A DNA stretch of 29,498 nt. Source: a virus. A program made the translations under genes and the position numbers. The stretch lies in the IMG/VR virus record IMGVR_UViG_3300030102_003916, positions 44,237 to 73,734 of that record. One strand, 5' to 3'. A model generated the notes under the pieces. That model saw nothing but the letters and a program-made list of their open reading frames with translations, searched no databases and was not told the DNA's origin. Each line of letters starts with the position of its first letter. Position 1 is the first letter of the stretch. Positions 1-29,498 of this stretch are shown here, one piece after another.

Positions 1-432
1 AGGATACACGATGAAACAGGAATGGTGAATTTGGCAGGTGGCAATAACTTTCCATCAAATTTGGCAGGTTATGTCTCCAATGTCCGTTCTCTCTCATCAG
101 CAACGGTCACGATGGCCAAAGCACAATTGCCTCCAGACTTGTCTGATGGCGAACCTAAAACGAACTCCTTGTTCATCGGCCTCTCGACAATAAGGAGAAG
201 CATACTGAAAGATGTCTGGTCTGATCTGACAGGCTATAACTCAGGGGCGGTGGACTTGGTTGTTGGCACTAACGATGGTGTGACTAATACAGATGATACG
301 ACAGCAAATCAGAATCCATACATAAATAACGTATGGCTATTCAAAACGGCCTTGTGTAATGTTTCCGTATTCAATTACGCCCTTCCTAATTCTGAGTGTG
401 ACAAGATATTCGCTGCAAGAGGTGTGTGGTAA
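1..432 (+). CDS. C-terminal part of LamG/concanavalin-like structural protein (5' end outside window)
   Basis: The frame is open from base 1 with no required start, so this is the end of a longer gene; 143 codons are visible before the TAA at 430-432. The text ends in a pattern typical of LamG/concanavalin-type jelly-roll domains: 'LAGYVSNVRSLSSA' near the start, then 'VSVFNYALPNSECDKIF' near the end, which resembles the closing 'V.iYN.ALs..Ei..l' strand-helix of Laminin_G_3-like domains in phage tail fibres and adhesins. It is rich in N, S, T and G, as expected for a virion surface protein. The next gene starts in the overlapping TAATG, so the two are translated together. Role inferred: tail fibre or capsid decoration that binds host glycans. 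The domain call is by eye. Confidence 0.6.
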   Translation, partial: RIHDETGMVNLAGGNNFPSNLAGYVSNVRSLSSATVTMAKAQLPPDLSDGEPKTNSLFIGLSTIRRSILKDVWSDLTGYNSGAVDLVVGTNDGVTNTDDTTANQNPYINNVWLFKTALCNVSVFNYALPNSECDKIFAARGVW

Positions 433-3400: not shown

Positions 3401-6400
3401 CTATGGATACAATGGATTGAATGCAGGAGGGCATGGGAATATAGTCGGGTTGAAGTCTGCTAACTCTGTGCTTATGGGCCATACTACCGTAAGGGAACCA
3501 CAAGGTACGCTCCGCATATTAACAGAATATGAGAATGTGCGCCATACTAGGGGAGAAGGTATAGGAGATGGCATCAATCCTGAGAGAACAGGTGTGACCA
3601 TATCTTATGATACTGATACAGATAGTGTGGCGTTCACCTCATATGTTTCTGTTGTCGATAGTATGGTCGCATATGATTACAGTCGTAGGTTGCCTGTAAG
3701 AGCCTGGGGTTTCCGAACTAGCTCAGACGCTTTGGATATGTTAGCAGGAGATCCTAATGAGCATCAGTCTGCTAACCAACCCGTCTATGGGAAGGGAAGA
3801 TTTGACGGTGGCATTCACGATACGATGAATAAGATTCCAAACGCCTCAACACACGGAGATTCCTGGGTGTTCCCGTCTGACTACAACGGTGTCGAGAGGA
3901 CAATGCCCATAGGATTGGTGCTGACTGCTCACACGGCAGAGGCCACGCCCTTCTCAAGCGTGATTAGAAGAAGCAACACGAAGCCCCTGCCGTCAGAGCA
4001 ACCAATTGGAATGGGACTCACTCTAGGGATGGACTCTGCGGGCCTAATCAAGCCAACTGCACTACCAGCAGGGGTGTGGCAACCGAAGACAGACCCGAAC
4101 AAAGGAGCAAACGAACCTTTGAAGGCAATACCGATGAACAAGGGTTCCGACCCGTTCATTGACTTGACACAATACACAGGATCGAACACCTATGCACAAT
4201 CATCCTCATCATCCGCAGTCAGCTCCACGCAATTCGGAGTAGGGGGTGGCTTCCACCACCTGAGAGGCAATGCTCTGCACACGAATGCATCAGCAATAGA
4301 CCACTCAAACACATCAAATGTCCATTATCCCACGACAGGATGGGGAATAGGGACACATAGCAATGCCACGATAACTAGCCTAACACCAATCCCTCTGTCT
4401 GAGATTAGCGACCACAGGCAGATTCAATCAAGGACAGAACCACGTCTTGGTTTCGTTATACAGACCGAAAGCGAGCGTCAGACAAACAAGAATATCCAAT
4501 ACTCAATACTCTCTACGAAGGCAGCATCATTGCACAGTGACTTGATTGTCGGTCAGCACTTCCCTGTAATGCCCTCCTGGTCTGTCAATACCAAGTTCAC
4601 CACTCACAACATGACGGTGAACCCCTCAAGCCCCTCAAGCCAAACAATCAGCAACCCGTACACTCTGCCCTCATGGAGTCCTGATACCAAAGACGACAAA
4701 GGAGATGGAGGTGCGGCGGTGTCCTCTTTGTCACTCACCAACGCAGGAACGGGATACACCTTCCCTAGTGGCACACTCGGATTCTCAGGCGGTGGTGGTG
4801 GAACAGGATTCTCAGGGACATACACTACGACAACCACTCTTGCCAATGCCACTCCCAATACTAACTCATCCCAACAATACACAGGTACAGGGACAGACAT
4901 CGTAGCCCTGTCCATCTCAGGCGGGGGAGGTTCGGGGGCCGCAGGAACGTACACGTTGAAACCAGATGGAAAGCCATTGAAAGGGTCTAATTTCACCATA
5001 ACTAACGCAGGATCATACTCATCCGTTCCCACTTTGACAATAGATGCCCCAACATCAGAAACACCTGGCAATGTCACGGCTACGGCAACCGCCGTTCTAG
5101 CATATGGTGCGAGTATGACTAATCCCAATAACACATCAGGTGGGACAGGATCTGTGTCGATTACTTATGAGTCAGAGAGCGAGGTTAGCGCAGAACAAAC
5201 ACCAAAGACCCTATCTGGTGGAACTATAACGCTAGAAAACGGACAAGACATTGGCCCATACACATTGCAAGGAGGAGCCACAACAGGGATAGCCTACATA
5301 GGAGATAAACCAGATACACAGAAGTTCACTTACACCGGAGTCAATACCTCCAACCCTTCGGCCCATCAATTCACGAATGTTTATATGTTGGGGCCAGTTA
5401 ATCAGAATTTTTCTGCTGGCACAAAAATCAGGCCATTGTCTCAACTTGGCGAATCAATAACAGGAACCACAGTTAGATTCAAGGCTACGCAAACTAGCCC
5501 TGCTCATACCACACAAGCAGAGGGAAAAATCGCATATAATTTCTCAGGTGGTAGGAATTACATCACATCATACTCCCTGACGCAAACAGGAGCTGGTTTC
5601 ACAAACGCTGGAACGAAGACAATGACTTTGCTAAATACAGGAAATGGGTACGGGCAACATAAGTTCGAGTCAAATGGCGACCAAACAACCGCCAATGCAG
5701 ATATTGGCTTGGCATCAAACGGGGTGTTGTCATCCATCACTATGACCAATGTAGGAGATGGTTATCTGTCCGTACCATCTGTGACTATCTCAGGCTCGGG
5801 CGGAGGTGCTATTACTGCCGCTATCAACACGGCCCACCCAACCACTAGAACGATTACTGACGTGAACATATCCAACAATGGAAGTGGATACACTTCAGCA
5901 CCAACGATAACCGCTACCACTCATCTAAGTGGAGGTGGTACGGCTCAGACAATCAACCCAATACTTGGTACGACAGGGCCGATAGCTTCTGTGAGCATAT
6001 CAAATGGCGGGTCAGGGTTCACAACCGCACCGACCATAGTTCCGAGTGGTAGCGGTAGCAACGCGGACATCACGCCTACTGTTCAACTACCAACCAACCC
6101 ATCTGTGCTGAATGCCGCTAAGACTCATGCAAAGGATGCTTGGACAGTCAGAGGTTCAGCAGACTTGCCACCCTGGGGTGGAACGTATATCCTTCGTAAG
6201 ACATACTTGAACAGAAGCGAAGAGGGAACACTCACTACTGACGTGTTCGGGACAGATGGCAACGCTACGACATCGAATCAGAAGAGGAAGTCGATTGACT
6301 ACTTCGTTCGACCCGTCAGGCCACTCAAACTCTTTGGCTTTGCATCAGACTTGTTGCAAGATGGATGGACACACGGCGCAAGATCATCAATAGGAGATGC

Positions 6401-8852: not shown

Positions 8853-9935
8853 ATGGCAGGATTGGGTCAGGGACACGAAACGGCAAATCAATCGTATCAG
8901 TCAGATGGACTTAGAGACACAGATGTCCTGGCTAGTCCCACTCTTACTAACTTCAACGAACGTGGTCTGCTCAACGGAGTCGTGCCTATCATCTCCAATG
9001 ACTATGACTCGGGTTCTCGCAATTCATCCACGACAGGCAACTGTGCTTGCTCCACATCGGGCAGTCAATCTATTGTGATAGCGGCTGGAACCTTAGTGGT
9101 CGATGGTGTGTTCTATTCCATAACCACATCCACCTTGAACGTGGCATCTGTGACGGCACAGTATGCGACATACAATTCAAGCACAGCTCCGACACTCTCT
9201 GCCAACCATGAAAGAATACTCTTGGTGTATTTCGATCCTGATCTTACGAATAATATCGGTTTCGTCTATGGTGCTTCAATAGATACTTCGAGTGGAGCAT
9301 ACCCTCAAAGCCCATCAGCTCATCTTGCCAATCAAACGATAGTCCTGGCCTCTGCTAGATTGCACAGGAATAACAACCAAGTCGAGATTGCATCACTCGA
9401 AGACAAGAGGGTCTTCGTAAGACCAGGCCCGATACCCGTGTCATCACTCATAGATGGTGGCGCAGCATCCATGCCCAAAAACAACTTCCTATCGGGCAAT
9501 CAAGGAAACCTACCGATTACCGATTTAGGATTCATCTTCGCCCGTGACCCTGCGGGACTTGGCGACCACCCTGACGGTAGCGGCGGCACACATCTGTTCT
9601 ATCAGTCCGATCAGAGAATCAACCAAGCAGGAACAGGCGGGGCATATCAGATAACGCCGACACACAGGACATCCATACTGACAGGAACATACACAGGAGC
9701 GCAGAAGAACTTCACATTGGAATACAGTCCTCTCGGTTCCCAGGATGAGGCATCAACCAAACTTATCGAGGTCGTCATGTATAAGTCAGGAACGCCACGC
9801 TTCATCGCTACTCTCATACAAGGACTAGACTACACCATATCTGCAAACGTAGTGACCGTCAATGGCTCACTAGGATATACAGGCACACCAACTCACGTTA
9901 GGATTTCTTATGTTCATGCGGGGCATACAGGTTGA
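8853..9935 (+). CDS. Tail/baseplate structural protein (DUF4815-like N-terminal architecture)
   Basis: 360 residues. The start is well fixed by a perfect archaeal GGAGGTGA six bases before the ATG, one base after the previous stop. The first ~200 residues read like baseplate/fibre-anchor proteins: 'SIVIAAGTLVVDGVFYSI' (a strand stating an offset and value), then 'NHERILLVYFDPDL', then 'VEIASLEDKRVFVRPGPI'. This order recalls DUF4815-type phage tail proteins, but I cannot confirm it. The middle has a G/D-rich loop with 'HPDGSGGTHLFY', and the last ~90 residues are beta rich ('RTSILTGTYTGAQKNFTLEY', 'TPTHVRISYVHAG'), perhaps a receptor-binding or adaptor domain. A pair of close Cys (CAC) near residue 65 may be structural. 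Confidence 0.65.
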   Translation: MAGLGQGHETANQSYQSDGLRDTDVLASPTLTNFNERGLLNGVVPIISNDYDSGSRNSSTTGNCACSTSGSQSIVIAAGTLVVDGVFYSITTSTLNVASVTAQYATYNSSTAPTLSANHERILLVYFDPDLTNNIGFVYGASIDTSSGAYPQSPSAHLANQTIVLASARLHRNNNQVEIASLEDKRVFVRPGPIPVSSLIDGGAASMPKNNFLSGNQGNLPITDLGFIFARDPAGLGDHPDGSGGTHLFYQSDQRINQAGTGGAYQITPTHRTSILTGTYTGAQKNFTLEYSPLGSQDEASTKLIEVVMYKSGTPRFIATLIQGLDYTISANVVTVNGSLGYTGTPTHVRISYVHAGHTG

Positions 9936-10164
9936 TTGGCGAGATAGCATTGTGGTGGATTATGTTGGGAGTGATTTATTGGGCAACATAAATCATTACC
10001 AAGACAAGATTAGCCAGGATTGTCCAGACTGTGGCAATCGTGTGTTGGCTATCCGCATCAATGGTTTCTATGCCGGTTCGAGAGATAGAATATTTTTATG
10101 GGAATGTCCGTTGTGTGAAAGCGTGTGGAAGAAGCTCAAGCCCAAGTTGAAGGTGGAAGCATGA
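9910..10164 (+). CDS. Small zinc-ribbon protein, end of virion module
   Basis: 84 residues. The ATG at 9910 has AGGA six bases upstream and lies inside the end of the previous gene (26 bases overlap); ATG 9916 is an alternative. Two Cys pairs, 'CPDCGNRV' and 'CPLCESVW', 30 residues apart, form a classic zinc ribbon in which the second knuckle ends with the tryptophan common in TFIIS/Rpb9-like ribbons. The N-terminus has 'DWRDSIVVDYVG', the C-terminus is basic (KKLKPKLK). It could bind nucleic acid or act as a small regulator; nothing shows which. It is translationally linked to the tail gene before it and to the next gene (ATGA). Confidence 0.7.
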   Translation: MFMRGIQVDWRDSIVVDYVGSDLLGNINHYQDKISQDCPDCGNRVLAIRINGFYAGSRDRIFLWECPLCESVWKKLKPKLKVEA

Positions 10165-10559
10165 GTGCCTTCTCAGTAGCGTGGGGCTTGGTCAAGGAAG
10201 AACAGATGTGTGAGAATTGCGTGGACAAACCCGCAATGCCTCGTAGTGATTTCTGCCGTAGTTGCGCTATGAGAATGACAGGCGTTTCATACGATGAAAT
10301 GACTGATAGACAAAAGGGGATGTTCAAGAGATCAGATGACAAGTCAGAGGAGAAGGGTAAGTTCAGAGGCTACTCGAAGAATACCATTAGCGGGAGATCC
10401 GAGAGGCAGGGCAAGGCTAGAGCCTGGAATCAAAGCCGAAAAAACAAGCGAAGGAGAACCCGCAACATATACGCTCGACAGAAGGGGCGAGGTAATGTTC
10501 GCCCTGCCATGAGGAGACAACTAGGTGCTGGTGCAAGCAGAGCAGAGACTAAGAGATAG
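10161..10559 (+). CDS. Basic Cys-pair protein, probably nucleic-acid binding
   Basis: 132 residues from the ATG at 10161, which overlaps the previous TGA as ATGA and has GGTGG just upstream. The N-terminus carries 'CENC' and 'CRSC' 20 residues apart, a small zinc knuckle. The rest is strongly basic and low in hydrophobics, with runs such as 'NQSRKNKRRRTRNIYARQK', and is probably disordered. This composition suggests RNA or DNA binding, for example packaging or a late regulator, but no family is recognised. Its last 11 bases overlap the end of the convergent gene on the minus strand. Confidence 0.65.
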   Translation: MSAFSVAWGLVKEEQMCENCVDKPAMPRSDFCRSCAMRMTGVSYDEMTDRQKGMFKRSDDKSEEKGKFRGYSKNTISGRSERQGKARAWNQSRKNKRRRTRNIYARQKGRGNVRPAMRRQLGAGASRAETKR

Positions 10560-10689
10560 GCTTGCCGTTCCATGTCTTATTTTGCTCATGTCTCTCACGG
10601 ACTCTGCGGCAGATGTGACAATGGGTTCGACCATTCCTAAAGCCCCTCATCACTTTCTTGCATCTCGGATTGTCACAAGTCCAAGTCAT
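10549..10689 (-). CDS. 46-aa zinc-finger protein (last gene of the leftward block)
   Basis: ATG at 10689-10687, TAG at 10551-10549. The protein has Cys at residues 5, 10, 24 and 27 ('CDNPRC' and 'CHIC') and is basic, so it should fold around one zinc ion. It starts five bases after the stop of the gene upstream, as in an operon. The Shine-Dalgarno is weak. It ends inside the last codons of the plus-strand gene at 10161-10559, so the two modules overlap tail-to-tail. Its short length and clean Cys spacing argue that it is real, but a chance frame cannot be excluded. Confidence 0.55.
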   Translation of the reverse strand: MTWTCDNPRCKKVMRGFRNGRTHCHICRRVRERHEQNKTWNGKPIS

Positions 10690-10694
10690 GTCAC

Positions 10695-10943
10695 TCACTT
10701 CAATCTCTTAATTACGCCCTGTACCATTTTGTCTAACCTATCACATTCAGATAGACTGTAATGACGAAGAATTTCATTTGTGAACCCCCAACAATCCGAA
10801 CAGAAAACTAACTTTCTAACCTCATCCGTGTGATTTAGACAAGTCCATTTTTTGCTTGGGTATTCCTCATTCACTTGGTCATAACTCATTTCATTTGAGC
10901 AATTATCGCAAGCCATGATTCTCTTCTCGTTGTCGTATGGCAC
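10695..10943 (-). CDS. Small multi-Cys (zinc-binding) protein
   Basis: 82 residues from a GTG at 10943, chosen because GGAGGAG lies six bases upstream (this site is also the Glu tail of the previous gene); an ATG at 10916 is an alternative. Cys motifs: 'CDNC' near residue 12, 'CLNH' near 35 and 'CSDC' near 48, enough for one or two zinc sites of mixed CCHC/CCCC type. The rest is a helix ending 'LDKMVQGVIKRLK'. No family recognised. It follows the DnaQ-like gene at the end of the replication operon. Confidence 0.65.
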   Translation of the reverse strand: MPYDNEKRIMACDNCSNEMSYDQVNEEYPSKKWTCLNHTDEVRKLVFCSDCWGFTNEILRHYSLSECDRLDKMVQGVIKRLK

Positions 10944-20853: not shown

Positions 20854-21258
20854 TCACTCCTCCTCGTCCCTCATCCACCATGCAACGCAGTCTTGGTACA
20901 ACTCCTCATCGCCTATGACATCTATGATTATGTCTCTAGCCCAATCTTGAATGAACCACCTGTCCTCGATCCTGCCAAGACTGTCCATGGCCTTCACGCC
21001 CCTCCCCAATGTCATCTGCCCTATGTATTTGAGATAGGAGACTGATACCTTCTTGCCCGTGCAATTCGCTACGATGTATATGCAATCGAAGCAATGAGTA
21101 ATCGGACTGCGATTTACCTTGCTTCTAGTCTTCGACCAGATTTCATAGGAATACTCCGATAGTGACTCATAATCCTCGTCGTCGATAATCTCCCAAATCA
21201 TCTGAATGAGAGACTTATGCTCAGACAGGAAGTCGTCGATGGATTCCCATTTACTCAT
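20854..21258 (-). CDS. Acidic helical protein of unknown function
   Basis: 134 residues from the ATG at 21258 (GAGGG six bases upstream), overlapping the previous gene by 8 bases; ATG 21264 is less well spaced. N-terminal part is helical and acidic ('ESIDDFLSEHKSLIQMIWEI'), the middle has 'CFDCIYIVANCTGKK', and the end 'RDEEE' is encoded by GAGGAGGAG that also serves as ribosome site for the TTG start of the ligase-like gene. No family recognised. Confidence 0.6.
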   Translation of the reverse strand: MSKWESIDDFLSEHKSLIQMIWEIIDDEDYESLSEYSYEIWSKTRSKVNRSPITHCFDCIYIVANCTGKKVSVSYLKYIGQMTLGRGVKAMDSLGRIEDRWFIQDWARDIIIDVIGDEELYQDCVAWWMRDEEE

Positions 21259-21544
21259 CAACATCCCTCAAGGAGTCCTTTTCCACGACAATCCATACGT
21301 CATCATCCTCGACCAAATCCGAGAGCGCATCTCTCAATGCCCTAGCCTCAGTCCTGTTCAGAAAGAAACCGGCCTTGGTATAACCAGTCCAACCTGTTTT
21401 CGATGGCACGATACGACGCATTCTCACGTTGAGCATACGTCCATCAAAGGCATTCGATGTTATGACGTGCAACTCCTCACCGGGATGACAAGTCGTTTCA
21501 ATCTCATCATGAATGACGTTCTGGTAGTCATGCTCTCTGGTCAT
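21251..21544 (-). CDS. PC4-like (p15 coactivator fold) putative ssDNA-binding protein
   Basis: 97 residues, ATG with GGAGGA five bases upstream. The core 'LNVRMRRIVPSKTGWTGYTK' followed by 'AGFFLNRTEARALRDALSDL' aligns by eye with the PC4/Sub1 pattern 'vdIReyy...g..kptkkGisLt.eqw..Lk..i..i': a beta sheet with Arg after the first strand, then a K-x-G-x-x-L turn and a helix. PC4 folds bind single-stranded or melted DNA and are found in phages and eukaryotes. A role in viral transcription or ssDNA protection is possible. No zinc motif; one lone Cys. Confidence 0.4.
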   Translation of the reverse strand: MTREHDYQNVIHDEIETTCHPGEELHVITSNAFDGRMLNVRMRRIVPSKTGWTGYTKAGFFLNRTEARALRDALSDLVEDDDVWIVVEKDSLRDVDE

Positions 21545-21545
21545 C

Positions 21546-22049
21546 TCATTCCTCCTCTGATAGTATCTGCTTTATCCTAGCCCCTCTGTCATCCATTACC
21601 ACATGGAGATTATCCCAAGCCTTTGTGAATCCTTGTTTGCCACAGGTCGGGCATTTTCTATCTGTTATCTGAATCATTATCTTGCCGGGTTCAGGCGGCT
21701 CTATCCTGACTATGGTTCCACATTGCTTTGAGCATACCGCCGCCTCCCCATACCTGTCCTCTGGTATGTTCAACACCTCTCCCTCTTGGTTCCATGCCTT
21801 CTCGATCGCAAGTCCCACTTCCCAACCAATGTGCTTACCCAACTCGACTAGGTACTCATGGTCATCGAACAGGGTCCGAGATTCCTTTGTCACTTTATGA
21901 GTGGGCAGAGCGGCATACAACTCGACGAGGACTATCTGGTTCTCCCCGGTTCTCTCATAGACACCGAGGTCTGGGACAATCCACCGTCCCCCCTCCGCCA
22001 GACCACCCCACAATTGGATGGCCCATATGCAATCCTCCTCAGTAATCAT
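21546..22049 (-). CDS. Zinc-ribbon protein of unknown function
   Basis: 167 residues. The ATG lies inside the end of the small gene before it (11-base overlap). Cys106 and Cys110 ('CSKQC') with Cys133 and Cys136 ('CPTC') make a zinc ribbon in the C-terminal half; the N-terminal half 'IVPDLGVYERTGENQIVLVE' resembles a small beta domain, perhaps binding the partner. Ends in Glu-Glu-Glu, encoded by the Shine-Dalgarno for the PC4-like gene. No family recognised. Confidence 0.65.
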   Translation of the reverse strand: MITEEDCIWAIQLWGGLAEGGRWIVPDLGVYERTGENQIVLVELYAALPTHKVTKESRTLFDDHEYLVELGKHIGWEVGLAIEKAWNQEGEVLNIPEDRYGEAAVCSKQCGTIVRIEPPEPGKIMIQITDRKCPTCGKQGFTKAWDNLHVVMDDRGARIKQILSEEE

Positions 22050-22203
22050 TCGGATCCCACTCCCACTTCTTGCACATGGGACACGCTAGAGTCCCTTGCA
22101 TCCTACTCTTCATGATGTTCTTTCTCCTCTTGCTCTTTGTCATTCTCACACCGCATCCCTCACACCACACTTGATACGCATATACATCTTCATCTTCGGT
22201 CAC
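22039..22203 (-). CDS. 54-aa zinc-ribbon protein
   Basis: GTG at 22203-22201 overlapping the previous TGA as GTGA, with GGAGGGG five bases upstream; TGA at 22041-22039. Cys at residues 14 and 17 ('CEGCG') and 41 and 44 ('CPMCKKWEW') with a basic stretch between ('TKSKRRKNIMK') is a complete zinc ribbon. The strong ribosome site, coupled start and clean motif support a real gene despite its size. Function unknown; the basic linker would suit RNA or DNA. Confidence 0.7.
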   Translation of the reverse strand: MTEDEDVYAYQVWCEGCGVRMTKSKRRKNIMKSRMQGTLACPMCKKWEWDPNDY

Positions 22204-22520
22204 AGAATCCCCTCCAACTCTGAGTCACTCAGGTGCTTGGCAGACTGTAACCACCTCCTCACACGGAAGCCCACTCCCTCGGTTCTTTCCTTGTCATAGC
22301 GAGACAGCCAATCCTCTGCAATCCTCAAACGCGAGTCTATTATGTCTAACTTCTCTGCTTTCTCTATCCCAGACCACTCTTGATATTCGGATGTAGCAAG
22401 CAAAGCCCCCCTCTCTGCTCTGATTTCAGCCATCAATTCATTCCATGGTGCGGACAGCATTCTGTATCGCCTCTCTATGGCATATGCCCTTCCCTTTGGG
22501 TCGTTCATGGCAATATCCAT
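22200..22520 (-). CDS. Helical protein of unknown function
   Basis: 106 residues, almost all helix: 'AYAIERRYRMLSAPWNELMA', 'EYQEWSGIEKAEKLDIIDSR', 'SAKHLSDSELEGIL'. Many charges, no Cys pair and no recognised family; a coiled-coil or bundle adaptor is likely. It begins 28 bases after the previous stop with no clear ribosome site, so it may be a weakly expressed or separately started gene; the start ATG at 22520 is therefore the least certain in this block. Confidence 0.6.
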   Translation of the reverse strand: MDIAMNDPKGRAYAIERRYRMLSAPWNELMAEIRAERGALLATSEYQEWSGIEKAEKLDIIDSRLRIAEDWLSRYDKERTEGVGFRVRRWLQSAKHLSDSELEGIL

Positions 22521-22548
22521 CGCGGTTTACGGTATAACCCCGCCTCTC

Positions 22549-23025
22549 TCACAGCCAATCAGGCATTGAATCATCGAAGTCATCTAGCGGCGGCACTATT
22601 CGGACGGCAAACAAGTCGTCTAAATCCAATTGAACAGGATGCCATCCTCTCCTCTCAAGCATAGAGTCCACATAATTCAGAATCGTCGAATCCTTCTCCA
22701 CCAACTCCAGAGTGTCTCCTGTAACCACACCATGAGGAATCCAACCAGTCCTTCCGGTATCGACCTCAATCACACCAAAATGCCTGTCTGGCAACTTCAT
22801 GGGAAGTATATCTCTGGAGAACATATTCTCTGCAAGCCTGACATTCTGCATTATGATGATTGACGATCTGATGTCCCATGGTTGTCCGTCAGCAGTTTCT
22901 CCCTCATCAGAACCCGCATAGCCATCGTCGCTAATTACAGTAAGGCTTGGCATGACCCAACGAGCGAGCGCGTACTCAAAGGCCGCTTTAGGGGCATCAG
23001 GGAGGTTGTCCTTGTCAATCCTCAT
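22549..23025 (-). CDS. Protein of unknown function with acidic C-terminus
   Basis: 158 residues; the ATG overlaps the stop of the 37-residue gene as ATGA. The N-terminal part looks helical ('APKAAFEYALARWVMPSL'), then G/D-rich 'SDDGYAGSDEGETADG', then beta-like 'HFGVIEVDTGRTGWIPHGVV' and 'DLFAVRIVPPLDDFDDSMPD'. No nuclease or zinc motif. Not recognised. Confidence 0.6.
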   Translation of the reverse strand: MRIDKDNLPDAPKAAFEYALARWVMPSLTVISDDGYAGSDEGETADGQPWDIRSSIIIMQNVRLAENMFSRDILPMKLPDRHFGVIEVDTGRTGWIPHGVVTGDTLELVEKDSTILNYVDSMLERRGWHPVQLDLDDLFAVRIVPPLDDFDDSMPDWL

Positions 23026-23135
23026 TCAATCAACTCCTTGTTAGGCTTACATCTAGGGCATGGGCCTTCGTAATGACTGTTCACATTATGATAATACATT
23101 GTACCTGTACCAAGACAATATTTGCACTTGGTCAT
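23022..23135 (-). CDS. 37-aa DnaJ-like zinc-knuckle protein
   Basis: ATG at 23135-23133 overlapping the previous TGA as ATGA, with GGGAGA five bases upstream; TGA at 23024-23022 overlaps the next start, again ATGA. 'CKYCLGTGT' and 'CPRCK' resemble one unit of the CxxCxGxG zinc repeat of DnaJ. The start and stop couplings on both sides make it very likely a real gene although it has only 37 residues. Function unknown. Confidence 0.65.
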   Translation of the reverse strand: MTKCKYCLGTGTMYYHNVNSHYEGPCPRCKPNKELIE

Positions 23136-23395
23136 TGATTCTCCCTCATCATCTTAATCAGTATGTCATATGCCTTCTTAGCAGGGGCATTGATGACTAT
23201 TGGCTCAGGATCATCGGCAGTCCTGTGTATCGTCCACTCGGTAGTGTCCACGCCGTTACCGGGAGTCATGGTCATGGAGTGTGGTGGGCGTCCGAATAGG
23301 AACTGTGCGCCCACCCAGACGTTCTTGGCCTTCTTGCGTGTCCTGCCGGGGCATCTAGTGAACTCAGTTACTCTTGGCCCTTTGTTGTAAGCCAT
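23132..23395 (-). CDS. Small basic protein of unknown function
   Basis: 87 residues from the ATG at 23395 (GGAGGAG five bases upstream; the GTG at 23401 would overlap the site). N-terminus is basic ('RCPGRTRKKAKNVWVGAQFL'), C-terminus 'IVINAPAKKAYDILIKMM' looks like a helix after a strand. No recognised family. It ends in an ATGA overlap with the 37-residue gene. Confidence 0.6.
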   Translation of the reverse strand: MAYNKGPRVTEFTRCPGRTRKKAKNVWVGAQFLFGRPPHSMTMTPGNGVDTTEWTIHRTADDPEPIVINAPAKKAYDILIKMMRENQ

Positions 23396-23397
23396 GC

Positions 23398-23622
23398 TCA
23401 CTCCTCCTCCTCTTTCTTAGCGGTGATTACCCTGCCAAAGTGATCGCCCATGTAAACGTGGTTTGACACACAAACCGCGCCGACCTTCTCAGTCAGTTTC
23501 ATGCTCAATCCGTAGTTAGCCATTAATTGAGCCAAGTCCTCCATGAGGTCCGGCACTCTGTCTCTCCGAAACGATGCGACGTTCCTCAGAGTGATTTTGA
23601 TTCCTACCCAATCTCCCATCAT
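23398..23622 (-). CDS. Small protein with Glu tail
   Basis: 74 residues, ATG overlapping the previous TGA (ATGA) with GGAGA upstream. Contains 'VPDLMEDLAQLMANYGLSMK' (helix) and 'HVYMGDHFGRVITAK' (strands). Its last residues are KKEEEE, encoded by GAGGAGGAGGAG, which is the ribosome site of the next gene. No family recognised. Confidence 0.6.
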   Translation of the reverse strand: MMGDWVGIKITLRNVASFRRDRVPDLMEDLAQLMANYGLSMKLTEKVGAVCVSNHVYMGDHFGRVITAKKEEEE

Positions 23623-23927
23623 GCCATCTCCTGTCTTGCGATTATCTCTTGGTGAAACTCGTCACCCATCTTGGTAATCAACTCACGGAGAATCTCTCTT
23701 GTGTCTGATACCTGACCGGCCTCTATCCAATCGGAGAGCCTAGCGAGTATATCTATCAATGAATTGAAACGAGGGGTGTTTGCTAATTGCTCAATAGTCT
23801 CGTCAAGCACTCGGATTGCCTCCCCATGCTCATCCTGTCCTAGCCTCGTGTACGCGATTAGCAACAGGCCTGATACTGCACGTTCCATTCCTCTTACGGC
23901 ATCATAGGCACTATCAATGGGATTCAT
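23619..23927 (-). CDS. All-helical protein of unknown function
   Basis: 102 residues, a predicted helix bundle: 'AVSGLLLIAYTRLGQDEHGE', 'RVLDETIEQLANTPRFNSLI', 'REILRELITKMGDEFHQEII'. Not Cys rich. The ATG overlaps the previous stop (ATGA) and GGAGG is just upstream. It is reminiscent of small TPR-like or regulator helices, without a firm match. Confidence 0.6.
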   Translation of the reverse strand: MNPIDSAYDAVRGMERAVSGLLLIAYTRLGQDEHGEAIRVLDETIEQLANTPRFNSLIDILARLSDWIEAGQVSDTREILRELITKMGDEFHQEIIARQEMA

Positions 23928-24082
23928 GCCTCCACCTCCTCACACGCGCACCTCTCGCCACCCCACTCCTCCTCGCGGTAGTCTGGGATGATTGGCAGGT
24001 CGCAGATTGCACAGTCACATAGATCAGTAACCCATGCGGGCAGGTACTCCTCTGGATGCTGTGGGTAGTCTGAGTCTCTCAT
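23924..24082 (-). CDS. 52-aa acidic Cys-rich protein
   Basis: ATG at 24082-24080 and TGA at 23926-23924, both in ATGA overlaps with neighbours. Cys at residues 22, 24, 27, 46 and 48 ('CDCAICDLP' and 'CAC') could hold one zinc ion. Strongly acidic ('YREEEWGGE'), unlike the basic zinc proteins nearby, so a protein partner is more likely than DNA. GGAG lies about ten bases upstream. Function unknown. Confidence 0.6.
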   Translation of the reverse strand: MRDSDYPQHPEEYLPAWVTDLCDCAICDLPIIPDYREEEWGGERCACEEVEA

Positions 24083-24288
24083 CTTAACCATCTCCTCCCT
24101 TCTGGTAGTAGTGCGTTTGCTTCTCTTATTTTTTTTCGGAATTGAATTATTTCGCTTGTTTCCATCTCATCAAGCCTGTCAGCGAACTCATCTATGGAAT
24201 CATCATCGTGATACAGATAGTTTACTTTGTCAAGAAACTTGCTCAAATCCGATTGCAAACTGGATACTGATCCTTTTCTGCTTGGCAT
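24079..24288 (-). CDS. Small helical protein of unknown function
   Basis: 69 residues, ATG with GGAGG nine bases upstream. Mixed-charge helix: 'SVSSLQSDLSKFLDKVNYLY' then 'DEFADRLDEMETSEIIQFRK' ending in the basic 'EGRRWLR'. No Cys pair, no family. It is four bases downstream of the DUF3846-like gene. Confidence 0.6.
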   Translation of the reverse strand: MPSRKGSVSSLQSDLSKFLDKVNYLYHDDDSIDEFADRLDEMETSEIIQFRKKIREANALLPEGRRWLR

Positions 24289-24292
24289 CTTA

Positions 24293-24661
24293 TCACGCCT
24301 CCACCGCTACGACATCAATGTAGTGCATGATGTCCTCTTCCTCTCTCAAGGCAGGGGTATCCATCACAATGACATTGCCCGCAATGAGTTTCTCACTCAT
24401 GAGGACATTGGGGAAAAGCAATTTCTGGAAGTATGTTACGAAACGTGCATTGGTCTGGAACTCATCGCTCAGTCCGGCCATCTCATTTGCAAAGATGATG
24501 TGTCCGGGGACGGGTAGTTTCTCAATTGGACCCTCCACGAATCCCTGCAATTCCTCTAACGTGAAGTCCTCCCCATTCTTGGGTTCGACCTCGACAATGG
24601 GATAAGGATAGGCCTCGCTACGCTGATAGAATATCCATGCCTTCTTTGGTAAGTCGCCCAT
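24293..24661 (-). CDS. DUF3846-like protein
   Basis: 122 residues; ATG one base after the stop of the upstream small gene. Residues 36-49 'LEELQGFVEGPIEK', 58-64 'ANEMAGL' and 92-100 'LIAGNVIVM' follow the pattern of the DUF3846 family ('LqelVgG.iE.v...NEegk..gLp.N..AT......I.GdvlV'), found in many phage and plasmid proteins of unknown activity. The match is by eye. Ends 'VAVEA' so the ribosome site of the next gene is again inside the coding end. Confidence 0.45.
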   Translation of the reverse strand: MGDLPKKAWIFYQRSEAYPYPIVEVEPKNGEDFTLEELQGFVEGPIEKLPVPGHIIFANEMAGLSDEFQTNARFVTYFQKLLFPNVLMSEKLIAGNVIVMDTPALREEEDIMHYIDVVAVEA

Positions 24662-24662
24662 G

Positions 24663-24812
24663 CTACTCCTCCTCCTGATCTAGTAGTGCCTCAACGCGAT
24701 TCTTCGCTAGTGCCTTGGCACTCATGATGTGAGGCGGGTCTGCCTTGCGTCGTGCCTTGAATTTCATGTTGTAGCGGTATCTCTGTGCGGCTCTCTGTCT
24801 GCTGTTAGGCAT
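24663..24812 (-). CDS. 49-aa basic protein with Glu tail
   Basis: ATG at 24812-24810, TAG at 24665-24663, GGAGGAG five to six bases upstream. 'RQRAAQRYRYNMKFKARRKA' is strongly basic and probably binds nucleic acid; the last residues DQEEE come from GAGGAGGAG, the ribosome site for the next gene. Spacing to both neighbours is 1-2 bases. No family recognised; the good translation signals support a real gene. Confidence 0.6.
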   Translation of the reverse strand: MPNSRQRAAQRYRYNMKFKARRKADPPHIMSAKALAKNRVEALLDQEEE

Positions 24813-24814
24813 GG

Positions 24815-25159
24815 TCACTCCTCCTCCGTATCTGCATAGGAATGAACGGGGCGAATAGTGCCGTATGAGGGTATATCAGCCACCTGATTGACCCCTGCCA
24901 ACATCCTATCGACGAAGGCGTTCCTCTCTGCTCGCGTTGCGCCCTTGAGAGTGTATATCGCCGTGCCGAGTCTGTTCTTGACCGTGTACCTCAGTCCCGA
25001 CTTCGACTTGATTACAGTCACACCAGTAATGGGGTCAGACCACTTCAAGGGCTTCTTCAACTCATGAGTGCCGTACTTCTCCCCTGATGCCATCAGGATG
25101 TATTTCTCCCCGGTCTGCTCTGCTTGGATGTATCCGTACCGATCGTATGTGTATGACAT
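24815..25159 (-). CDS. Small beta-rich protein of unknown function
   Basis: 114 residues; ATG directly after the previous TGA with GGGGGA seven bases upstream. Beta-like text: 'EKYILMASGEKYG', 'GVTVIKSKSGLRYTVKNRLG', 'AIYTLKGATRAERNAFVDRM'. Ends DTEEE, coded by GAGGAGGAG that serves the next gene. No family recognised. Confidence 0.65.
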   Translation of the reverse strand: MSYTYDRYGYIQAEQTGEKYILMASGEKYGTHELKKPLKWSDPITGVTVIKSKSGLRYTVKNRLGTAIYTLKGATRAERNAFVDRMLAGVNQVADIPSYGTIRPVHSYADTEEE

Positions 25160-25172
25160 TCACTCGTCCCCC
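25157..25172. repeat. 16-base junction repeat, copy 1
   Basis: CATTCACTCGTCCCCC; on the minus strand it holds GGGGGA, the end codons for Asp-Glu, TGA and the next ATG. The same 16 bases occur at 26689-26704. Both copies mark a gene end that is joined directly to the next start. Confidence 0.7.
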
Positions 25173-26173
25173 ATCCAATTGTAGCGGCAGGAGCGACCGC
25201 TCGCTCCGTTGGTGACAATCCAACCTGCCTTGAGTAGTGCGTCGAAGCGTGGCCTCCAGTCGTCATCGTTGAGGCCCATCTCCGCCATGCCCTTCCGTAC
25301 TGCACCGATAGTCAGGTCGCCTAGAGACAGGACGCTACTAAGTGCGTCCGTAATCTGCTCCCTCTGCTTGACTATGGCGGAGAATGCGGGGGCGTCACCC
25401 TCGACCCCCACACCCTCCTCGGATGTGATGGACTGAACAGTCTGTCCCTCTCCTCCCATGACTACTATGCTAGGAGGCATCTCCTCGGTCGGGTGAACAA
25501 CCGGGTCCGAGGTGGGTGACTCATGGGTTGGAGTAGTAATGATGTCGGATCTTGTGACCGGACTAGCGACTGGTGTCTCTAGTCCCTCGACGGTGACGCT
25601 GACGTTGGTCTGAATCGTACCCTTGGAACGGGACTTGACTCTGCGTGTGAGTGACTCGACCATGGCGTCTATGCGCTCCTTGTCTTGGATGTCTGGTAAC
25701 TGTGCCTTGTCTATGGACGTGCGACCGGACTCGTTAGTGACCATGGCCTCGTCCTGAACCTCGTTGAGTAAATCCACTACTTCCTGAACCCTGTCCATGT
25801 TACCGCCGAATGCGTGACGCAGACTAGCAATCAAGAAGGAGTAATTGTATTTGTGGTCAAGAGCCATGGTCGTCGTGACATCGCTCTTGCCCACGGGTAT
25901 CACGACTGATGGCTTGTCGTCCTCTGCTTGGCGGACCTTGAGTGTGACACCACCCACAGTCACCTCTAAGTCCGTCTGCCCGACAGTCCTCAATGGGTTC
26001 ATGCCCTTACGCTCCTCTTGTGAGAAGTAAACGCGCTCACCCGTGACTTCCATCTGCTCATGGATGAGTCTCTTCACCTCTGCACCTATCGGTTCCAGAG
26101 CGATTAACTCAACGGGTATATTGCCCGCACCAAATTGTTCTTTCAATTGCTTTCCTATCTTTGCTTTGCTCAT
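25160..26173 (-). CDS. Protein of unknown function with disordered middle and C-terminal winged-helix-like part
   Basis: 337 residues, ATG with GGAG about nine bases upstream. The first ~165 residues are mixed helix and strand with no recognised motif ('VTVGGVTLKVRQ', 'FLIASLRHAFGGNMDRVQEV'). Residues ~190-270 are rich in T, P, S and E and likely unfolded. The last ~65 residues ('REQITDALSSVLSLGDLTIG' then 'DALLKAGWIVTNGASGRS') read as a winged helix, so it may bind DNA, for instance as a regulator or origin-binding protein. The largest gene of the small-gene block, and near its promoter end, which suits an early regulator. Function is inference. Confidence 0.6.
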   Translation of the reverse strand: MSKAKIGKQLKEQFGAGNIPVELIALEPIGAEVKRLIHEQMEVTGERVYFSQEERKGMNPLRTVGQTDLEVTVGGVTLKVRQAEDDKPSVVIPVGKSDVTTTMALDHKYNYSFLIASLRHAFGGNMDRVQEVVDLLNEVQDEAMVTNESGRTSIDKAQLPDIQDKERIDAMVESLTRRVKSRSKGTIQTNVSVTVEGLETPVASPVTRSDIITTPTHESPTSDPVVHPTEEMPPSIVVMGGEGQTVQSITSEEGVGVEGDAPAFSAIVKQREQITDALSSVLSLGDLTIGAVRKGMAEMGLNDDDWRPRFDALLKAGWIVTNGASGRSCRYNWMGDE

Positions 26174-26231
26174 TCTATTGTCTCCTAGCCCTCATCGGGG
26201 AATACTTCATGAGTGGGGGTAGTATTTGAAC

Positions 26232-26390
26232 CTACTTCCGCTTGTGATATGCGACCATACCAGATCGCTTCTCCTTCATGTTCAACAGGTAGCACTTGCC
26301 ACAGTACCATCTCTTGCGAGTCACTTGCGAGACTGATGATTTGGTATTCCTAGTATTGATGTCCTTTCTGCACCTGTAACACACGGGCAT
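26232..26390 (-). CDS. 52-aa zinc-finger protein
   Basis: ATG at 26390-26388, TAG at 26234-26232. Cys at residues 4 and 7 ('CYRC') and 30 and 33 ('CGKC') with a basic body ('RKRWYC', 'HKRK' end). Follows the gene at 26413 by 22 bases; no clear ribosome site, so expression is less sure than for the coupled genes. A short basic reading frame of 11 codons fills part of the gap to the next gene (see findings). Confidence 0.55.
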   Translation of the reverse strand: MPVCYRCRKDINTRNTKSSVSQVTRKRWYCGKCYLLNMKEKRSGMVAYHKRK

Positions 26391-26412
26391 GATTAGCAAA
26401 GGGGCGTTTCGC

Positions 26413-26532
26413 TTATGATTGCTCCTCTGGTATCGTCCATGGCCTCTGGTTCAGACAAACCTCGCAGTATATCTCTCTCTTGAAGAATACGTTCCTCATC
26501 CTGCATCTCTGGCATAGGGACAATGTAGCCAT
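26413..26532 (-). CDS. 39-aa zinc-finger protein
   Basis: ATG at 26532-26530 directly abuts the previous TGA, with GGAGGTT upstream; TAA at 26415-26413. Cys at residues 7, 10, 23 and 26 ('CQRC', 'CEVC') 13 residues apart form one compact zinc site. Basic N-terminal half ('RMRNVFFKRE'), acidic end. Strong coupling supports a real gene; function unknown. Confidence 0.6.
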   Translation of the reverse strand: MATLSLCQRCRMRNVFFKREIYCEVCLNQRPWTIPEEQS

Positions 26533-26691
26533 TCACTCAACCTCCACTCCACACTTCGGGCATTGATCTCCTTTGTTCCAATCTGCTTGAATTAAAATGC
26601 CGTGACTGTTCTTGCACTTGTTAGGACAAGGCCTTTTCTTGTTTCCAGATGGCAGGGTAATATTGAACATCCCTCTAAATGGGTCTTCCAT
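26533..26691 (-). CDS. 52-aa zinc-ribbon protein
   Basis: ATG at 26691-26689 directly after the previous TGA, with GGGGGA seven bases upstream; TGA at 26535-26533. 'CPNKC' and 'CPKCG' 18 residues apart give a small ribbon with a beta-like middle ('HGILIQADW'). The last residues GVEVE are coded by GGAGTGGAGGTTGAG, the ribosome site for the next gene. Function unknown. Confidence 0.65.
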   Translation of the reverse strand: MEDPFRGMFNITLPSGNKKRPCPNKCKNSHGILIQADWNKGDQCPKCGVEVE

Positions 26692-26704
26692 TCACTCGTC
26701 CCCC
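26689..26704. repeat. 16-base junction repeat, copy 2
   Basis: Identical to 25157-25172. It forms the ribosome site, stop and start between the genes at 26692-26949 and 26533-26691. Confidence 0.7.
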
Positions 26705-26949
26705 TTTGGCTCGTAATCGACGTGGTTCTCAGGTAGCCTGTGCTTTCTCCTGTCGCTCATGTTCTCAAGATACTTACAGATGTTCTCTGCTCCCTTCCTG
26801 AATCTCTTCTCCGCAACCTTGTCTCCCCTTGGTATCATCTGGGACATGAGTCCGCTCAGGTTAATCTCGTATCCTATGTGTTGGAGGATTTCGTACTCGA
26901 CGTGCGTGATGCTTACTGCCCTGCCCTTGCTGATTTGTCCATCGCTCAT
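26692..26949 (-). CDS. Small protein of unknown function
   Basis: 85 residues, ATG overlapping the previous stop as ATGA with GGTG six bases upstream. Helices 'VEYEILQHIGYEINLSGLMS' and 'KRFRKGAENICKYLENMS' suggest a small helix-turn-helix or bundle; the end is 'YEPKGDE'. No family recognised. Confidence 0.6.
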   Translation of the reverse strand: MSDGQISKGRAVSITHVEYEILQHIGYEINLSGLMSQMIPRGDKVAEKRFRKGAENICKYLENMSDRRKHRLPENHVDYEPKGDE

Positions 26950-27074
26950 CTCTTACACCTGCAAGCATCGTTCATCAAGGCTCCCCATGGTCCGGTCGAT
27001 CCACCGCACTTTCGACAGATGCCCAAAAGCACCTCACTCTTTTTTGCTTCATTTTTCTTCTTCTTTTCACTCAT
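26946..27074 (-). CDS. 42-aa zinc-finger protein, first gene of the leftward block
   Basis: ATG at 27074-27072, TGA at 26948-26946 (ATGA overlap with the next gene). A very basic N-terminus ('SEKKKKNEAKK') precedes Cys20 and Cys23 ('CRKC') and Cys38 and Cys40 ('CRC'). GGAAGTG lies about five bases upstream. It lies closest to the promoter region and so may be made early and abundantly. The final Cys pair has only one residue between, so the zinc site is not certain. Confidence 0.6.
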   Translation of the reverse strand: MSEKKKKNEAKKSEVLLGICRKCGGSTGPWGALMNDACRCKR

Positions 27075-27110
27075 TTTTTCACTTCCATAAACCGGGCCAA
27101 TTTTGCCTCG

Positions 27111-27120
27111 GTAAAATTAA
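27111..27120 (-). promoter_or_regulatory. Possible TATA box of the leftward operon
   Basis: On the minus strand this reads TTAATTTTAC, an archaeal TATA-like element. It lies about 25 bases before a position near 27090, which would give a leader of some 15 bases holding GGAAGTG before the ATG at 27074. A second candidate, TTTATGG, is at 27085-27091, and CCTTTATGG at 27136-27144. No BRE is clear. Confidence 0.3.
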
Positions 27121-27173
27121 CGAGTCGGTATTTGACCATAAAGGCTTCTGCCCAAAAACGGGGTACTGCGAGC

Positions 27174-27191
27174 CATTTTTGTTAAAAAATG
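27174..27191. repeat. Short AT-rich inverted repeat (hairpin)
   Basis: CATTTTT (27174-27180) and AAAAATG (27185-27191) are perfect 7-base arms around a GTTA loop. In the main intergenic region between divergent genes it could be an operator, an easily melted element of an origin or a weak terminator. Confidence 0.4.
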
Positions 27192-27215
27192 CCTATTTTT
27201 GGATATACAACGTGC

Positions 27216-27261
27216 ATTTATGATCGAAATAGAATCGAAACTGCACGAGCGAGAATCGAAC
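27216..27261 (+). promoter_or_regulatory. TATA-like element and phased TCGAA repeats upstream of the rightward gene
   Basis: ATTTATGA at 27216-27223 is TATA-like, and GATATACA at 27202-27209 is another candidate. Behind it TCGAA occurs at 27224, 27235 and 27256, with AGAATCGAA repeated exactly at 27231 and 27252, 21 bases apart. Spacing of 11 and 21 bases keeps the units on one face of the helix, as in operators for a dimeric regulator. The region leads to the ATG at 27296. Confidence 0.35.
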
Positions 27262-27295
27262 CTATTTTGTGAGCGAAAGCACTTGGGGGAAGAAC

Positions 27296-27646
27296 ATGAA
27301 ACGAATACGATATGATTGTGTGAAATGTGGTAAGACAACCTATGACCGCCGCATCTGTGGTTGGTGTAGGTTGGACATGAGTCTTGAGGAGACATTGAAA
27401 CTACTGAATGACAATCCAGTAACTCCCTCTGGCAAACCAATCCGACATTCCGTTCATAGTATGCAAAAGAAAAGGGAGGTGAACAAAGTGAGAAATTGTG
27501 ACGTATGCGAGGCAAGAAAGGCCCGCCGACAGAAGGTCATGGATGTCCTATTTTCAGCCGTGAAGGCCGGATTTGGAGCCGCCTTTCAGTTGGGTGTGTC
27601 AGTCGGTGCTATCTATTATCTGATTCAAGAGGGGGTGATCCTCTGA
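27296..27646 (+). CDS. Cys-rich small protein with hydrophobic C-terminus
   Basis: 116 residues from the ATG at 27296 (GGGGGA about five bases upstream); a GTG at 27269 is less likely. The N-terminus has 'CVKC' and 'CGWC', a zinc ribbon 16 residues apart, and there is another 'CDVC' near residue 70 in a basic stretch ('KKREVNKVRN', 'EARKARRQK'). The last ~30 residues ('FGAAFQLGVSVGAIYYLI') are hydrophobic enough for one membrane segment, though mild. It is the only plus-strand gene in the right half, set off by its own regulatory region, so a regulator or early protein is a fair guess. Its last 48 bases overlap the minus-strand gene at 27599-27871. Confidence 0.65.
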   Translation: MKRIRYDCVKCGKTTYDRRICGWCRLDMSLEETLKLLNDNPVTPSGKPIRHSVHSMQKKREVNKVRNCDVCEARKARRQKVMDVLFSAVKAGFGAAFQLGVSVGAIYYLIQEGVIL

Positions 27647-27871
27647 CTGAGGACGAGGAGGAATAACACCAGAATCTGTGATGTGGGGGTGCGCTTGCAT
27701 TCGCCATCCGTTGGCCTCTCTCCTGAGTCTAGCGCATCTTCCACATCGGACAACAGTATCCTTGGATTGCGTCCTGATATTGTGCTTCTTGCAATCCCTG
27801 CATTGCCTGTAATTCTCAGGCTTGCGAGCGGGGCCTCTCTTCTTGTGTCTGCGAGCGTATGGCTTCATCAT
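27599..27871 (-). CDS. Zinc-ribbon protein, convergent with rightward gene
   Basis: 90 residues, ATG overlapping the previous stop (ATGA). The N-terminus is very basic ('KPYARRHKKRGPARKPE'), then 'CRDCKKH' and 'CGRCARLRR' 17 residues apart make a ribbon. The C-terminal 35 residues look unfolded ('IPPRPQSEDHPLLN'). Tail-to-tail overlap of 48 bases with the plus-strand gene. Probably RNA or DNA binding. Confidence 0.65.
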   Translation of the reverse strand: MMKPYARRHKKRGPARKPENYRQCRDCKKHNIRTQSKDTVVRCGRCARLRREANGWRMQAHPHITDSGVIPPRPQSEDHPLLNQIIDSTD

Positions 27872-28145: not shown

Positions 28146-29498
28146 TCAACCCATCATCCCCGGCATTGGTGGCATACCCCCGTCACCTGCCTTCATACTA
28201 ATCACGTCGTCTATTCTTAGAATCATGATGGCGGCTTCGGTAGCGGAGCCAAGTGCTGTCCACACTACCTTGTGTGGCTCTATGACCTTCGCATCTCTCA
28301 TGTTCACCACGTCCCCCTCTGTGTTTATCCCGTAGTCCGCGCTCTCTGCCTTGCGTAGCGCGAGGACTGCATCGACCGGATCGATTCCGGCGTTCTCTGC
28401 CAGAGTCTTCGGTATCGACTCCAGAGCGTCGCTGAAAGCGGAGATTGCCATTCCCTTTCTGTCTCCCATGGTAGCGGCCTTCAACCTCAGATGTCGGGCT
28501 AGGTGGGCATACACCCCTCCACCCCCTGCAACCAGTTTCTTGGCCCTAGCACTCAGGAAAACCACACCCATAGCGTCGTCCCATGCTCTCTCTATCTCAT
28601 CTAGGGAGTGGCCTGTGCTACCACGAAGCACGGCGGTGACGCTCGTCGTCCTATCAGATTTCAGGACCGTGCAATGGTAGTCTCCGAACTTGACCTCCTC
28701 AATATTAGAGGCCAGTCCCATGTCCTCCGGGTCTATGTCTTCCAAGCCATTGACGAACCTCGCGCCCGTTGCCTTCTTGAGTGCCTCCATCCTGCTTTTC
28801 TTCACGCGCTTTAGGCAGAAGATTCCGGCCTTCGCCAGATAGTGCATTGCGAGGTCGTCCACTTCCTTCTGGCAGAACACCGCATTAGCACCTGTTGATA
28901 TTATCTCCGCGCACATCGCCTTGAGCATCTCCTCCTCTTGAGCCAAGAAGTCCTTGACCTGATCCGGGTTGTTGATGTTGAGCGTCGTGTCGAACTTCGA
29001 CTCCTTGATGCCTATCTCCTCTGTGACCAATAGGACATGAGCGTCACTCAGGCTCGCGGGCATCTCGCTGTGCGCTCGCTCCTTCTCTATGAGGACACCA
29101 TGAATCAATGCGGACTCATCATACGTCCCACCAGAGAATGAGGCTACCATGATGTCATCTAACGTACCCTCATCACCTATTGTCTGGACGGCTTCGACGC
29201 ACATTGCTGAGATTACCTCTGCCGCTCCTTCTGCACTCTTCCCGGTCAGGCTAGTCATGGCGACGCTAGTCAAGTCCTCCTCTGTCGCCTCCCATCCTAA
29301 TGTGGCTAATTCGTCCTTGGCTAGGTCATGAGCCTCCTTGAAGCCTCTGCATATGATTGTCTGGTGTATGCTATCGTCTAGCAGGTCTTCTGCACGTTCC
29401 AATATAGCCCCGACCAGAACGGCGGCTGATGTCGTTCCATCGTGGGCCTCCTGTTCTTGGGTTTCGGATACCTCTATGATGAGTTTCGCGGCAGGGTG
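28146..29498 (-). CDS. Group II (thermosome-type) chaperonin, 5' part outside window
   Basis: The frame is open to the window edge; 450 codons are visible and about 90 residues of the N-terminus are missing compared with the usual ~545. Thermosome/CCT features are clear: 'HPAAKLIIEVSETQ', 'HDGTTSAAVLVGAI' (ATP loop), 'DQVKDFLAQEEEMLKAMCAE', 'GANAVFCQKEVDDLAMHYLA' (helical protrusion), 'LVAGGGGVYAHLARHL', 'ALESIPKTLAENAGIDP', 'VIEPHKVVWTALGSATEAA' and the tail 'GGMPPMPGMMG'. Odd points: the loop usually reads GDGTT and here HDGTT; GGGAxE is GGGGVY. Known members fold proteins inside a two-ring cage in an ATP cycle. A viral copy might fold virion proteins such as the giant tail gene. Followed directly by a winged-helix gene. 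Confidence 0.92.
   Translation of the reverse strand, partial: HPAAKLIIEVSETQEQEAHDGTTSAAVLVGAILERAEDLLDDSIHQTIICRGFKEAHDLAKDELATLGWEATEEDLTSVAMTSLTGKSAEGAAEVISAMCVEAVQTIGDEGTLDDIMVASFSGGTYDESALIHGVLIEKERAHSEMPASLSDAHVLLVTEEIGIKESKFDTTLNINNPDQVKDFLAQEEEMLKAMCAEIISTGANAVFCQKEVDDLAMHYLAKAGIFCLKRVKKSRMEALKKATGARFVNGLEDIDPEDMGLASNIEEVKFGDYHCTVLKSDRTTSVTAVLRGSTGHSLDEIERAWDDAMGVVFLSARAKKLVAGGGGVYAHLARHLRLKAATMGDRKGMAISAFSDALESIPKTLAENAGIDPVDAVLALRKAESADYGINTEGDVVNMRDAKVIEPHKVVWTALGSATEAAIMILRIDDVISMKAGDGGMPPMPGMMG

Follow-up and report, generated by a model that had tools for sequence, protein, structure and literature searches.

Small proteins carrying CxxC motifs are common in haloviruses of the HF1 group (Hafunaviridae: HF2, Serpecor1, Hardycor2), where they are mostly encoded outside the assembly module (PMC7230728). 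The HF2 annotation lists many of them, 33-60 amino acids (aa) in length, whose genes overlap one another in series; PD-(D/E)XK and ERCC4-type nucleases are encoded in the same region of the genome. Ten hypothetical CxxC proteins, mostly from outside the assembly module, are reported for Hardycor1 (PMC7911831), and three short early genes of His2 code for small proteins with a high isoelectric point and/or CxxC. On the cellular side, 49 microproteins with at least two C(P)XCG motifs are known among about 400 in Haloferax volcanii (PMC11241148). Here, we analysed a window of 29,498 nucleotides (bases 44237-73734 of the 75,655-base virus record IMGVR_UViG_3300030102_003916), in which an earlier note made from the sequence alone had pointed to about 14 small frames with paired cysteines. 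All of them are present, many coupled via 4-base overlaps, and comparison with related viruses identifies 11 of the 14 as conserved coding genes, many of them in tightly coupled runs. The pattern has been known from haloviruses since 2020 and 2021 (PMC7230728, PMC7911831) and is found here in another virus group; the added result is that three families recur and most do not.

The likeness to the HF1 group is one of pattern, and the virus differs from that group in host group and lineage. Its right part is transcribed leftwards and, as in HF2, includes ERCC4-type and PD-(D/E)XK nuclease genes, together with a terminal group II chaperonin gene. Many CxxC proteins shorter than 100 aa occur in this one tailed, putatively archaeal virus, and the battery is absent from the virion assembly module, except for g9910 and g10161 at the module's far end. 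These two are plus-strand genes and close the virion-direction unit, so the assignment of the set to the minus strand holds for most members but not for them; a frame placed at 27296 exists as well, with its first start codon at 27269 and on the plus strand. The latter (g27269) has a close parallel in HrrHc1_050 of Hardycor1, a protein with two CxxC motifs and a C-terminal membrane span encoded on the opposite strand, although Hardycor1 is unrelated to this virus. The C(P)XCG zinc-finger microproteins of H. volcanii (HVO_2753, HVO_0758) are similar to the set in size, Cys pairs, and abundance. However, they are cellular, and the models of HVO_0758, HVO_2753, and HVO_2142 match the set far below the cut-off. 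By the C(P)XCG criterion, g22039 has one CxxCG and one CxxC, and the glycine is missing from most other members.

Eight of the 14 frames encode 37-55 aa and six are longer (Table 1). At least two strict CxxC motifs are found in g22039, g23022, g26232, g26413, g9910, g10161, g10695, g27599, and g27269, and a single CxxC with a looser pair (e.g. CxC, CxxxC) in g26533, g26946, g23924, g21546, and g10549. Cysteine accounts for 7-11% of the smallest members, and net charge ranges from +20 to -11 across the set. The 4-base overlaps link the frames at 23132, 23022, and 22549 in a chain, and pair 22200 with 22039, 23924 with 23619, 26946 with 26692, 27868 with 27599, and 10695 with 10549.

The relatives compared were G001 (proteins about 98% identical), G002 (about 50-90%), and, mostly at 30-65%, G003, G005, G008, G010, G026, G027, G028, G029, G030, G032, and G034. 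Conservation, internal stop codons, and synonymous sites had been proposed by the earlier note as the tests of its frames, and the outcome is favourable: for 11 of the 14, G001 encodes an intact counterpart that keeps the cysteines, and in the remaining three cases the entire gene is missing from relatives. Nine of the 11 also occur in G002, which is more diverged and in which g10161 lacks its Cys part, and a few of the 14 can be traced across distant relatives. When six genes (10549, 22039, 23924, 26232, 26946, 27599) are pooled against G002, 125 of 181 synonymous and 175 of 746 nonsynonymous sites are changed (proportions pS 0.69 and pN 0.23), with 24 of 25 cysteines kept. These comparisons indicate purifying selection on the small Cys genes and identify the cysteines as their best-kept residues. 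Codon usage sets most of the small Cys genes apart from 105 out-of-frame open reading frames (ORFs), all of which are exceeded by the score of g23924; the score of g27269 is 0.053 versus -0.363 for its antisense ORF. The exceptions are g23022, for which codon usage is uninformative (19 of the 105 null ORFs reach its score), and g10549, whose status as a gene is argued from conservation. The position of these two within the null range, and the three frames without convincing homologs, are what would be expected if many of the frames had arisen by chance or were left over from larger zinc proteins. Such an explanation is nevertheless highly improbable in view of the excess over shuffled sequences, the purifying selection, the kept cysteines, the 4-base couplings, the frames open in relatives, and the sites that differ by whole gene units; it is refuted for 11 of the 14 and leaves at most about three frames unsupported.

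These three frames (g10695, g23022, g26533) are detected in this virus only, and no convincing homolog was found in 40 further virus records, single matches being short or broken. In G001 and G002, the two neighbours of g23022 abut directly. At the g26533 site, an unrelated gene of 172/165 aa stands behind the same upstream sequence (G001 24301-24819, G002 1052-1549). Both sites are cases of whole-gene presence/absence, not of remnants broken by stop codons.

The density of such frames had been called unusual, which stands against shuffled sequences and phage T4 but not against the tailed archaeal viruses HF2 and HVTV-1. Positions 20854-27871 contain four double-CxxC ORFs of 30-60 aa, where shuffling gives 0.08 on average (maximum 2), and the right part of the record (54000-75655) contains seven of 30-100 aa, where it gives 0.40 (maximum 2). 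By contrast, the left (virion) part is at chance level, with three small double-CxxC ORFs versus 2.6. In the replication segments of four larger relatives, the count is 4 (G028), 7 (G030), 7 (G032), and 6 (G034) versus about 0.3 each. Over the first 50 kb, it is 4 versus 0.15 in HF2, 5 versus 0.25 in HVTV-1, and 0 versus 0.30 in T4. Since HF2, HVTV-1, and the four larger relatives also exceed their shuffles, the excess is common to tailed archaeal viruses and not peculiar to this one.

Only three families (g9910, g22039, g26232) recur widely, and they are undescribed in the HF1-group halovirus literature examined; when all double-CxxC ORFs are compared with one another, most of the remaining ones stand alone or have a single partner. 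The large genes around the small Cys ORFs are collinear among relatives. On this comparison, the set combines a few families that recur with lineage-specific genes that are gained and lost as units within a collinear block. Within the recurring part, g22039 lies next to g21546 in most relatives, and a search for the g9910 family returned 88 stretches of viral contigs encoding a relative. The true start of g9910 is probably internal, since its relatives start near residue 26-28. Its stretch INGFYAGSRDRIFLWEC is almost invariant across viruses whose other proteins share about 40-60% identity, and matches no known family above the cut-off. In the adjacent g10161, the Cys module is variable (4/4 Cys in G001, 0/4 in G002): it is an N-terminal part that can be exchanged, attached to a basic domain that is conserved. 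In G034, an 87-aa ORF (7392-7655 of L169) matches g10549 in its first half, continues with a second Cys-pair segment, and adjoins the homolog of g26232 rather than occupying the position that g10549 has in the window.

Table 1. Small Cys-pair genes of the window and the chaperonin gene, with their conservation in relatives
Feature	Position	Strand	Description	Conservation or match
g9910	9910..10164	+	zinc-ribbon-like family CxxC-(24)-CPxC-x3-W, core LAIRINGFYAGSRDRIFLWECP	26 residues invariant in 15 sequences
g10161	10161..10559	+	N-terminal Cys module, conserved very basic C-terminal domain	C-terminus kept in nearly all relatives
g10549	10549..10698	-	49-aa Cys-pair protein, net charge +8	90% G001, 70% G002, 4/4 Cys in both; also in G029, G032, G034
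g10695	10695..10943	-	82-aa Cys-rich protein	this virus only
g21546	21546..22049	-	167-aa protein, embedded CxxxCG...CPxC pair	found wherever a relative spans the region, most Cys kept
g22039	22039..22203	-	54-aa zinc-ribbon-like protein of the core	4 Cys, G, and W sole invariants in 9 diverged sequences
g23022	23022..23135	-	37-aa double-CxxC protein between g23132 and g22549	this virus only
g23924	23924..24091	-	55-aa acidic Cys-rich protein (CDCAIC...CAC)	89% G001, 86% G002
g26232	26232..26399	-	55-aa basic double-CxxC protein, motif CGKCYL, net charge +13	cluster of 7 genomes
g26413	26413..26532	-	39-aa double-CxxC protein	97%, G001 only
g26533	26533..26691	-	52-aa Cys-pair protein	this virus only
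g26946	26946..27074	-	42-aa Cys-pair protein	98% G001, 88% G002, 4/4 Cys
g27269	27269..27646	+	three CxxC, C-terminal hydrophobic stretch	98% G001, 58% G028, 47% G032; absent from G002
g27599	27599..27871	-	basic double-CxxC protein, net charge +12	99% G001, 52% G002, 4/4 Cys; partial matches in G028 and G032, probably from the overlap with g27269, left uncounted
Group II chaperonin	28146..29402, frame continuing upstream past 29402	-	archaeal signature	Cpn60_TCP1, E = 2e-110

Taken together, we favour, with a probability of about 0.6, that these proteins are fast-turning microproteins of zinc-knuckle or zinc-ribbon type acting as small binding modules in infection. Most are encoded in the leftward replication transcription unit, and two (g9910 and g10161) stand last in the rightward virion unit. 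Each set of two Cys pairs would hold one structural metal, as the Cys spacing and weak matches to zinc ribbons suggest. By analogy with the small CxxC proteins of haloviruses and haloarchaea, basic members such as g26232, g27599, and g10549 may bind nucleic acids and other members host proteins. In this way, host and viral gene expression would be tuned during takeover, and the variable members would match individual hosts. Several observations weigh against this proposal. In scans of Pfam, PHROGs, and NCBIfam, the small proteins gave only sub-threshold zinc-ribbon matches; no family reached a curated Pfam or NCBIfam cut-off, and no significant PHROG family was assigned to the small Cys proteins. 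Two AlphaFold2 models are too weak for a firm fold (mean predicted local distance difference test, pLDDT, of 64.5 and 56.7), and Foldseek searches with structure models returned no significant match. Metal binding cannot be assumed, because five out of 14 C(P)XCG proteins of H. volcanii contained no zinc when purified (PMC11241148), and the wide span of charges argues against one shared role. The high Cys content of the smallest members could alternatively point to metal-buffering or redox (thiol) proteins that are not binding modules. This is improbable, given that members have about four cysteines each, with ribbon-like spacing and conserved Gly/Trp neighbours, and that a metallothionein model matches one homolog only weakly (E 0.013).

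A more specific function can be considered for g9910. It might be a TFIIS/TFS/RPB9-type ribbon that enters the NTP channel of RNA polymerase without the catalytic acid pair and inhibits or retunes transcription, for which Sulfolobus TFS4 offers a precedent (PMC5715097). The spacing C-x2-C-(24)-C-x2-C is that of TFIIS-type C-terminal zinc ribbons, and the Asp-Glu pair is lacking in g9910 as in TFS4: its hairpin FYAGSRDRIF has Ser-Arg at that place, counted from the second Cys. In addition, RPA12 comes on top of a phmmer search of the PDB with the g9910 core (E 0.16), and RPB9/RPA12/C11 ribbons are among its best Foldseek matches, though at E >= 1.1. We nonetheless consider this function rather unlikely. 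PF01096 finds nothing in the record even at E <= 10, although 13 of 14 control genomes are positive, and g9910 reaches only 33% over 9 columns in hhalign against a small TFIIS/RPA12 set (its sequences checked with chains from the PDB). As g22039 scores higher (90%) on the same set, the likeness seems to be one shared by zinc ribbons in general. Moreover, g9910 has a single ribbon, lacking the N-terminal one of TFS, and is encoded in the virion-direction unit. Membership of g9910 in the TFIIS/TFS family is thus unsupported by the PF01096 scan and hhalign.

The turnover of the set could also be explained if its members were anti-defence proteins, each directed against one host immune system, and the small size, accessory nature, and changing content of these genes, gained and lost as wholes, are compatible with such a role. 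It is unlikely, however, since the core families g22039, g26232, and g9910 are conserved over a wide range of viruses, which fits a basic function better. No match to known anti-defence families was obtained, the sole weak PHROG match being a Lar-like protein for one g9910 relative (E 0.051), and no evidence of anti-defence activity was found. That the frames are real proteins with metal-knuckle cysteines, encoded beside replication genes, is borne out; the roles suggested in the earlier note, on transcription, on RNA, or against defence, stay plausible by analogy, with none singled out by the data.

Concerning the virus itself, the left part of the record encodes terminase, portal, prohead protease, and a SU10-like capsid gene, and it is on account of these that we regard it as a tailed double-stranded DNA virus; in the phage collection, TerL has no more than distantly similar sequences. 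Most of the closest cellular matches to the viral chaperonin come from Poseidoniales (Marine Group II archaea), which are probably the host. In the chaperonin tree, the viral sequences group together, long-branched, on one side of a branch, so this host remains a reasonable inference and not a proof. Relatives of g11627 and of the chaperonin were sought in the phage collection, and a provirus in GTDB genomes with the g11627 alignment; none was found. A truncated chaperonin was ruled out, as the frame extends beyond its first start codon, across a run of N in the virus's own record. This run, at about 73700-73800 of the record and just outside the window, interrupts the chaperonin gene, which is intact there in G001. 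At the other end of the window (426-8510, plus strand), a 2,694-aa protein, almost Cys-free and with many Gly/Ser/Thr-rich stretches, is probably a tail or receptor-binding protein.

To conclude, our results extend the battery of small CxxC proteins from haloviruses to another group of tailed archaeal viruses, separate its conserved core from the part that turns over, and mark three families for first experimental testing. Should host gene expression be a target of the core, the way in which viruses take over uncultured ocean archaea would become accessible to in vitro work. One could speculate further, although we hold it doubtful, that in a widespread group of tailed viruses of Poseidoniales the conserved zinc-ribbon trio g9910/g22039/g26232 forms a core switch of host transcription or translation, with the cassette members as host-specific adaptors. 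If so, a whole takeover layer of a major group of ocean archaeal viruses would consist of proteins under about 60 aa.
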